A stretch of 64,000 nt of DNA. Source: Streptomyces sp. HNM0575. Its GTDB lineage: Bacteria; Actinomycetota; Actinomycetes; Streptomycetales; Streptomycetaceae. The stretch is taken from assembly GCF_012726265.1 (NCBI RefSeq), contig NZ_JAASAG010000002.1, positions 496,001 through 560,000 on the forward strand, given 5' to 3'. The number at the start of each line of letters is the position of its first letter. Positions within the stretch are counted from its first letter, which is position 1. This document shows, piece by piece, positions 46,691-48,788 of the stretch. The notes beneath the pieces were generated by a model. That model did not search any database. It worked only from the letters and a program-made list of their open reading frames with translations, and was not told the DNA's origin. The position numbers and the translations under genes were made by a program.

Positions 46691-47728
46691 TCACTTGTCG
46701 GGGGTGTCCTTGACCTTGATCTTGCCCTCGACGATCTCCTTCTTGGCCTTGTCGATGTCCTTCTGGATGTCGTCGATGAAGCCGCCGGAGGTGGCGAGCG
46801 AGACGCCGTCCTCCTTGAGGTCGAAGGACGTGGTGCCCTTCATCGGCTTCTTGTCCTCCACGCTCTTGATCAGGTCGTAGACGGCGACGTCCACGTTCTT
46901 CACGGCGGAGGTGAGGATCGCGTCCTTGTACTTGCCGAGGCCCGGCTGGGTGTACTGGTCGGAGTCGACCCCGATCGCCCAGGCGCCCTTCTTCTTGCTG
47001 ATCTCCTCGATCGAGCCGACGCCGGACTGGCCGGCGGCCGAGTAGATCACGTCGTTGCCCGAGTCGAGCATGCCCTTGGCCTTGTCCTTGGCGGCGGCCG
47101 GGTCGTTGAAGCCCTTGGTGTTGGTCGGGTACAGGTACTGCGAAGTGACCTTGACCTTCGGGTCGGTCTCCTTCACGCCCTGCTCGAAGCCCGCCTGGAA
47201 CTTCTGGATCAGCGCGTTGTTGACGCCGCCGATGAAGCCGACCTCCTTGGACTTGGTCTTCTTCGCGGCGGCGACACCTGCGAGGTAGGACGCCTCGTGC
47301 TCGGCGAAGACCAGACCGGCCACGTTCTTCACCTTCGACGGGGAGTCGACGACGCCGAACGTGGTCTTCGGGAACTTCTTCGCGACCTTGTTGACGGACT
47401 TGCCGTAGTCGAAGCCGACGCCTATGACGGGGTTGAACCCTGCCTCGGCGAGCGAGGTTATCCGCTGCTCGCGGTCGGCCTCCGTCTCGTCGTTGCTGGC
47501 CGTCATCTCCTTGGACTTGACGGACAATTCCTTCTCCGCCTTGTCGACGCCACGTGCCGCCGCCTGGTTGAAGGAGTGGTCGTCACGGCCGCCGACGTCA
47601 AAGGCCAGGCCGACGCCCTTGTCCTTCTTGGCCGCGGACTCTGTGGAGCTCTCACCGCACGCGGTGGCGGTCAGGGCGAGGGCCGCGGTGGCGGTGACCG
47701 CGGCTGCAAGCTTGGTTACCCGACGCAA
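46691..47728 (-). CDS. bmpA: BmpA/Med-family nucleoside-binding lipoprotein
   Basis: 345 residues. The lipoprotein signal MRRVTKLAAAVTATAALALT has the lipobox TATAC (Cys24). The mature part follows the BMP fold (VGLAFDVGGRDDHSFNQAAARGVDKAEKEL, FGVVDSPSKVKNVAGLVFAEHEASYLAGVAA, VGFIGGVNNALIQKFQAGFEQGVK, VDSDQYTQPGLGKYKDAILTSAVKNVDVAVYDL). It captures nucleosides outside the membrane for the ABC importer encoded downstream. TTG start, with AAGGGGA about 10 bases upstream. The promoter overlaps a nucleoside-operator variant. Confidence 0.94.
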   Translation of the reverse strand: MRRVTKLAAAVTATAALALTATACGESSTESAAKKDKGVGLAFDVGGRDDHSFNQAAARGVDKAEKELSVKSKEMTASNDETEADREQRITSLAEAGFNPVIGVGFDYGKSVNKVAKKFPKTTFGVVDSPSKVKNVAGLVFAEHEASYLAGVAAAKKTKSKEVGFIGGVNNALIQKFQAGFEQGVKETDPKVKVTSQYLYPTNTKGFNDPAAAKDKAKGMLDSGNDVIYSAAGQSGVGSIEEISKKKGAWAIGVDSDQYTQPGLGKYKDAILTSAVKNVDVAVYDLIKSVEDKKPMKGTTSFDLKEDGVSLATSGGFIDDIQKDIDKAKKEIVEGKIKVKDTPDK

Positions 47729-47960: not shown

Positions 47961-48050
47961 GCCGGTGACCCCAACCGCGCCTGGGCGACGTCCCGTTGGG
48001 AGGGGGTGACCGGACGCGGCACCGGCCGTTCGGGGTTCCGGGGGCGGGCC
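47961..48050. repeat. 90-bp direct repeat, copy 1
   Basis: Begins GCCGGTGACCCCAACC and ends GGGGGCGGGCC. About 83 of 90 bases match the copy at 48250-48339, by eye. Confidence 0.85.
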
Positions 48051-48062
48051 GTTCCGGCATGC

Positions 48063-48151
48063 GTGTCCGGACGGCATGATTTACGGCCGACTTCACGGGA
48101 CCAGGCAGTCAGGTCTGCGTCGGCCACAAATCATGCTTGAGTGTCCGGACG
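48063..48151. repeat. Hairpin element flanked by an 11-bp direct repeat (MITE-like or structured RNA)
   Basis: GTGTCCGGACG (48063-48073), then arm GCATGATTTACGGCCGAC (48074-48091), a 27-base loop with an inner GACC/GGTC pairing, arm GTCGGCCACAAATCATGC (48119-48136), four bases, and GTGTCCGGACG again (48141-48151). The arms pair 9+7 bases around a 2x2 mismatch. Confidence 0.65.
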
Positions 48152-48249
48152 CGCAGCCTGCACGTCCCACCCCCTCCGGACGTCCAGCCGACCCTCCGCC
48201 GGTGACCACAGCACGTCCCCACCCCCTCCGGACGTCCCGGCGATCCTCC

Positions 48250-48339
48250 GCCGGTGACCCCAACCAGGCCTGGGCGACGTCCCGTTGGGAGGGGGTGACC
48301 GGACGTGGCACCGGTGGGTCGGGGTTCCGGGGGCGGGCC
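48250..48339. repeat. 90-bp direct repeat, copy 2
   Basis: Second copy of the repeat at 47961-48050, 289 bases away. It ends just before the stop of the lipocalin-like gene. Confidence 0.85.
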
Positions 48340-48344
48340 GCTGC

Positions 48345-48788
48345 TCATCCGCGGGTCCAGACGATGCGGACCGCTCCCCAGACGCTGTCCGCCGCGAGGG
48401 TCAGGTCTCGGGCGGTGTCGAAGTGGTACGTGCGGACCGGGTCGGTGCCGGTGAGGTTGGGGAAGGAGCCGGACTCGATGTGGTGGGTCACCGTGCCCGC
48501 GTCGCCGTCGACGGTGAAGGTGCCGAAGTAGCCGAAGTAGTCCGGCCAGGCGGCGACGACCTCGTCCGGGTGGGCCTTCAGCCAGTCCTCGTCGGCGAAG
48601 GGAGGGCGGTTCGCGCGCGCCAACTGGGCCGACATGCGGCCGCTGTCGTCGTAGAGGAGCTGTCCGACGGCGTCGGCGCCCAGGGGATGGAACGCGTCGC
48701 CGGCCGCGTCGAACGCCTTCCAGCTCACCAGGCGCCAGGCGCCCAGCAGCCGGGCGCGTGCCGCATGCGTTGTCGTCATGCGGGCCAT
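48345..48788 (-). CDS. Lipocalin-like domain protein
   Basis: 147 residues (139-144 if a later ATG is used). RLLGAWRLVSWKAFDAAGDAFHPLG, GQLLYDDSGRMSAQLARANRP, YFGYFGTFTVDGDAGTVTHHIESGSFPNLTG and RTYHFD match the lipocalin-like family (Lipocalin_5 type), small beta barrels found in many actinomycetes and fungi. A ligand is not known. It begins seven bases after the cutinase-like gene with GAGGG overlapping that stop, so the two are co-translated. Confidence 0.84.
   Translation of the reverse strand: MARMTTTHAARARLLGAWRLVSWKAFDAAGDAFHPLGADAVGQLLYDDSGRMSAQLARANRPPFADEDWLKAHPDEVVAAWPDYFGYFGTFTVDGDAGTVTHHIESGSFPNLTGTDPVRTYHFDTARDLTLAADSVWGAVRIVWTRG

Follow-up and report, generated by a model that had tools for sequence, protein, structure and literature searches.

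The hairpin analysed here lies in a window of 64,000 nucleotides, the whole stretch of Streptomyces DNA under study, and belongs to a family of elements of ~135–165 bases that is dispersed in some Streptomyces, mostly at gene ends, and looks like a small mobile element. We consider it quite probable that the family is a REPIN-like, non-autonomous mobile palindromic repeat, non-coding, that sits at the terminator position between genes.

Structure of the element

The sequence-only reading had described a hairpin at 48063–48151, and its description agrees with the sequence and with folding against shuffles: two copies of GTGTCCGGACG, read directly, flank the hairpin (48063–48073 and 48141–48151); 16 of 18 positions pair between the arms 48074–48091 and 48119–48136; and the four extra bases on one side are the tetranucleotide TTGA at 48137–48140. 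The unpaired arm positions are two A·C juxtapositions, which become G·U/U·G on the minus strand. Folded alone, 48063–48151 reaches −46.6 kcal/mol (z −5.4) on the plus strand and −47.4 kcal/mol (z −6.6) on the minus strand, and 0 of 200 shuffles fold as well on either strand.

These limits are too narrow. Our fold of the minus strand of 48010–48210 gives one stem from ~48174 to ~48040, which continues past a small internal loop, and the conserved unit in another genome spans the corresponding extent; the full element is a long imperfect hairpin at ~48040–48174 on the minus strand. From its base to its tip, it comprises, on the minus strand throughout, the outermost stem (5′ side on the RNA strand GGGGGUGGG, 48166–48174; 3′ side CCCGCCCCC, 48040–48048); the outer helix (5′ side GUCCGGAC, 48143–48150; 3′ side again GUCCGGAC, 48065–48072; each inside one copy of the "direct repeat"); a six-base asymmetric bulge (48137–48142, ACUCAA on the RNA strand, opposite 48073) that parts the outer helix from the core helix and measures 5–6 nt in most family members; the core helix (5′ side with conserved GAUUUGUGG, 48119–48136; 3′ side with conserved CCGUAAAUC, 48074–48091); and a variable terminal loop (48092–48118). 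Covariance model R1 matches 48064–48152 on the minus strand with 60.1 bits, and at E ≤ 1 it finds no second match in the window. The element is flanked by a lipocalin-like gene (48345–48788, minus) and a Bmp/PnrA-family gene (46691–47728, minus), and the strand that folds is also the one on which both genes lie.

The structure also accounts for the flanking repeat. GTCCGGAC is self-complementary and its two copies pair together, lengthening the stem; as it is its own complement, the "direct repeat" is a continuation of the stem, self-complementary by chance at this locus. Other members carry TTCGGGAC...GTCCCGAA instead, which are complementary yet form no direct repeat. The sequence-only reading had proposed a miniature transposable element with an 11-bp target duplication, and an exact 11-bp repeat is indeed present in the window; however, the direct repeat is missing in other members, the repeat is stem sequence, and the unit has no duplication at its ends, so that we regard this proposal as refuted and give it a negligible probability. 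The alternative idea of a two-site operator fails on the same two points, the repeat being stem and other members having no direct repeat.

Next to these features, we observed that 48000–48073 is repeated ~289 bp downstream on the plus strand (48289–48363, 84% identity); this partial second copy comprises the left flank and the outer arm, and the element thus sits in a partial tandem duplication.

A dispersed family in some Streptomyces

A genome search for further copies with different flanks, suggested from the sequence as a check, found four copies in the element's own genome, all with different flanks: that of the window, two at C12:566 kb and one at C31:195 kb. With many more copies in other genomes, the notion of a miniature transposable element holds in the broad sense, stripped of its target duplication; the element is multicopy and conserved, and not the single, unconserved sequence that the earlier reading had allowed for.

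Among 392 Streptomyces genomes, 16 contain the strict pattern CATGATTTACG-N20-50-CACAAATCA and 0 a reversed-pattern control, whereas 55 have a match to R1 at E ≤ 1e-6, with ten candidates scored per genome. The richest genomes hold 20–40 R1 matches each: 38 in G249, 29 in G084 and 20 in G113 (some places being scored once per strand), with 33 in G197 and likewise 33 in G379. A collection of named genomes yielded at least 80 pattern matches, those listed being 69 from Streptomyces, one from Streptosporangium and 10 other records; among these matches listed, the Streptosporangium record bears family-like arms and the 10 other records have no outer arms. So far, the hairpin itself has been seen only in some Streptomyces. 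Searches for carriage on plasmids and phages gave no match to the element; the 19 strict-pattern matches on viral contigs (L151–L169) proved to be two unrelated conserved sequences without outer arms and were rejected.

Eleven AT-rich loci without outer arms were likewise left out of the copy set (102 copies, 41 representatives); in the placement, shared-site, neighbour-locus and wobble/arm-identity analyses they were screened by an energy filter only. Alignments A1 and A2 (39 rows) omit two insert-bearing copies, and A3 (38 rows) also omits L059. A similar inserted G+C-rich hairpin of ~29 bases stands at the asymmetric bulge in the L003/L010 region (G000 C12:566.7 kb) and in L120, which belong to different genomes.

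Covariation and the folding strand

The covariance analysis that had been proposed upholds the stem by compensatory changes: in a set of 86 distinct R1 matches, pairing holds in 96.4% of cells, both sides have changed in 18 of 26 pairs (290 cells), 0 of 500 shuffles reach this level, and sliding one side by 1–3 columns lowers pairing to 32–42%; as alignment A4 comes from 70 chosen sources and was fitted to R1, pair counts lean towards structure. The pattern-selected set, in which the core positions are fixed by the pattern, is paired at 88.1%, with both-side changes in 13 of 26 pairs and 0 of 500 shuffles as good. Single cases are instructive as well: part of the core is swapped for a different complementary sequence in G084, and a U·G wobble has become C–G in G379.

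Wobble pairs at outer-helix positions 16–24, counted in a strand-neutral alignment and read on the window element's minus strand, number 161 G·U vs. 22 A·C. Taken per genome or locus, likewise with a strand-neutral alignment, G·U exceeds A·C in 21, with the reverse in 6 and 8 ties, one row coming from L137, one of the AT-rich loci; the clearest exception is G113 (4 G·U, 11 A·C). The surplus shrinks to 427 G·U against 291 A·C when every aligned arm position is counted, since that alignment is unpaired at its ends. Compensatory changes together with wobble pairs that favour one strand indicate that a single-strand structure has been kept; judged by the sequences, the folding species is a single strand, RNA or ssDNA, and to that extent the earlier suggestion of a structured RNA is borne out by strong covariation and by the strand bias of the wobble pairs.

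Placement, probable movement and alternative explanations

The placement count covers 151 copies, with genes called by a GC-bias script and each orthologous copy entered separately, not merged into independent events: convergent gene pairs flank 54 of them, tandem pairs 50 and divergent pairs 11, while 10 fall within predicted genes and 26 close to a locus end. The background from these loci is 70 convergent, 273 tandem and 87 divergent gene pairs, so that convergent placement is enriched (odds ratio 4.6, p 7.5e-11). The element at L199 4722–4813 falls within one long predicted ORF, which may be two genes, fused or adjacent, with the element between them.

Several observations are consistent with movement. 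Arm identity is 0.85 within genomes and 0.51 between genomes. The 20 copies in G113 have sharp common ends, which coincide with the hairpin, and mostly unrelated flanks; the shortest repeated segments are ~165 bp, the unit ends are GTGAGGGGG and CCGACC, and each copy is single, with its own sharp ends. A scan of 19 of these copies (row L263, minus, left out) found no target duplication beyond the unit ends, the best excess being 2-base matches at arbitrary offsets. Many G113 elements (L265, L267, L273, L277 and others) are preceded by a short repeat, GAGTGCCCACAAC, in several copies.

G249 has eight pairs ~150–200 bp apart, all minus then plus. All eight full doublets consist of subtype A and subtype B, one A having a one-base change, and the A+B doublets occur in both chromosomal orientations, recurring as units. 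In a wider collection, the close pairs are divergent in 10 of 10 cases, and further listed close pairs are arranged likewise; the G379 doublets have longer, non-coding spacers. Longer inverted repeats (CGCCTCCCGGC...) enclose some G249 doublets (L202–L205); in 4 of 8 doublets their score exceeds that of every shuffle.

Comparison of sites gives a mixed history. Both genes that flank one G249 doublet are found in the loci of 5 of 19 relatives; in four of these five the gap is a short spacer with an ordinary terminator-like hairpin and no doublet, and in the fifth (L228) the flanking genes are farther apart. On the other hand, 11 groups of intergenic sites are common to several genomes, and an orthologous copy is present in G328 and G004, decayed in the latter. 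Shared sites and sites empty in relatives together indicate that some copies were inherited and others gained. At the window element's own site, the neighbouring gene has no strong relative among 40 relatives, and for the G113 site no close relative was found. Neither a target duplication nor a strain-level empty site was seen, and the case for movement is drawn from how the copies are distributed.

The element could alternatively be a cis-acting bidirectional transcription terminator or mRNA 3′-end stabiliser that is kept for its function, a useful terminator being copied around. Enrichment between convergent genes and depletion between divergent genes favour this explanation, as do two sites at which the element fills the whole gap between convergent genes (L078, and the MFS/ABC site of L058, L114, L136 and L149) and the terminator-like hairpins of relatives at the empty site; the conserved flanks contain no U-tract, and structured transcript ends without U-tracts are described for Streptomyces clavuligerus (PMC8269248). 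However, copies between tandem genes are oriented 25 with and 25 against the genes on the RNA strand, though the fold is strand-specific; 10 copies lie in predicted ORFs and 11 between divergent genes; and 337 of the 392 genomes have no match. We consider this explanation possible but rather unlikely.

It is less probable still that the copies are vertically inherited palindromes, kept alike within a genome by gene conversion and never moving: the orthologous copy and the 11 shared-site groups agree with descent, but orientation differs between genomes in several of these groups, for which in-place inversion between the arms could be responsible, and the G249 doublet is missing at its site in four relatives. 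A stand-alone structured regulatory RNA expressed from many loci would fit the covarying strand-specific fold and the conserved core; we nevertheless judge it very improbable, given that no promoter-like conserved sequence was found outside the hairpin, that copies run to dozens with freely varying loops, that they bear no fixed relation to any gene, and that no Rfam family matches the element at gathering score. Sub-threshold Rfam matches were eukaryotic miRNA hairpins on the element and one weak HgcG beside it.

The REPIN-like mobile repeat that we favour would work through an enzyme acting in trans, which would recognise the folded single strand by the conserved GAUUUGYGG/CCGUAAAUC helix and the bulge, and would copy it to new intergenic sites; copies would survive where the hairpin can replace the terminator of the flanking genes. 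From its sequence and position, it is plausible that the element also ends transcription. A more specific and, in our estimate, unlikely version is a mobile terminator whose folded strand is inserted at gene ends by an enzyme unrelated to RAYT and replaces the bidirectional terminator of convergent genes; if it were true, the element would be a parasite that pays its way by ending transcription.

The search for such an enzyme did not support a RAYT as mobiliser: Y1_Tnp (PF01797, E ≤ 1e-5) is absent from seven of eight element-bearing genomes (G000, G113, G249, G028, G084, G186 and G004), and the eighth, G122, has one match. The neighbour proteins (148 drawn from 175, of which 132 were aligned) are ordinary as far as their 25 commonest Pfam families show; these, beyond which 148 further families exist, include no transposase. 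The loci examined contained no autonomous partner: G084 pairs 3.3–3.7 kb apart enclose ordinary genes, and the long spacers of the G379 doublets are non-coding, so both were rejected as autonomous copies. Inspection by eye of the G113 and G249 strand lists showed no clear arm bias of the kind left by lagging-strand insertion.

Relation to known repeats

REP-like repeats are best described from Proteobacteria, where they occur with RAYT transposases. The elements resemble REPINs and REP sequences, described as dispersed extragenic hairpins that form inverted doublets with a spacer (PMC3116915), in being dispersed, extragenic, non-coding, homogeneous per genome, arranged in inverted spaced doublets and foldable as ssDNA or RNA. 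They differ in unit size (~135–165 bp vs. 20–40 bp for REPs as given in PMC3733652, the hairpins being about four times longer), in the scarcity of Y1_Tnp and in the common occurrence of singles with their own sharp ends. Given the unit size and the Y1_Tnp result, we describe the element as working like a REPIN without filing it as one.

GTAG and CGTC palindromic repeats, which lie mostly between convergent or unidirectional genes near 3′ ends, form dimers that are often heterodimers and, in the CGTC case, also do without a dedicated transposase (PMC3733652), are alike in all three respects. Unlike them, the Streptomyces element is much longer and has a strand-specific conserved core; no GTAG/CGTC tag on a 20–40 bp palindrome was seen in the G113 unit, and the main text of PMC3733652 mentions neither Streptomyces nor Actinobacteria. 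The nearest printed motif is MRSC-65-2, classed as a mobile or repeat candidate, with >20,000 representatives in diverse phyla and a conserved UYCCGG repeat (PMC11109978). By description only, the two share a single long covarying stem and dozens of copies per genome, and the Streptomyces elements often carry TCCGG. ERIC, NEMIS, Ype and Efa, also compared by description, are large intergenic palindromes near gene 3′ ends that can fold as RNA, and their hosts are unrelated to Streptomyces (PMC1590033). In the literature covered (open-licence papers, preprints excepted), we recognised no prior description of the family.

A long strand-specific hairpin with the doublet layout of REPINs, lacking RAYT in most of the genomes tested, would suggest that palindromes can spread by a second route, and hairpin repeats of this kind in Streptomyces would point to reshaped transcription ends in industrially important bacteria. 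Genome assembly may be affected as well: several copies are found at contig ends or close to them (L022, L024, L082, L126, L355, L386, L391 and L392), which suggests that the repeat interrupts assemblies and that draft genomes may understate its copy number.
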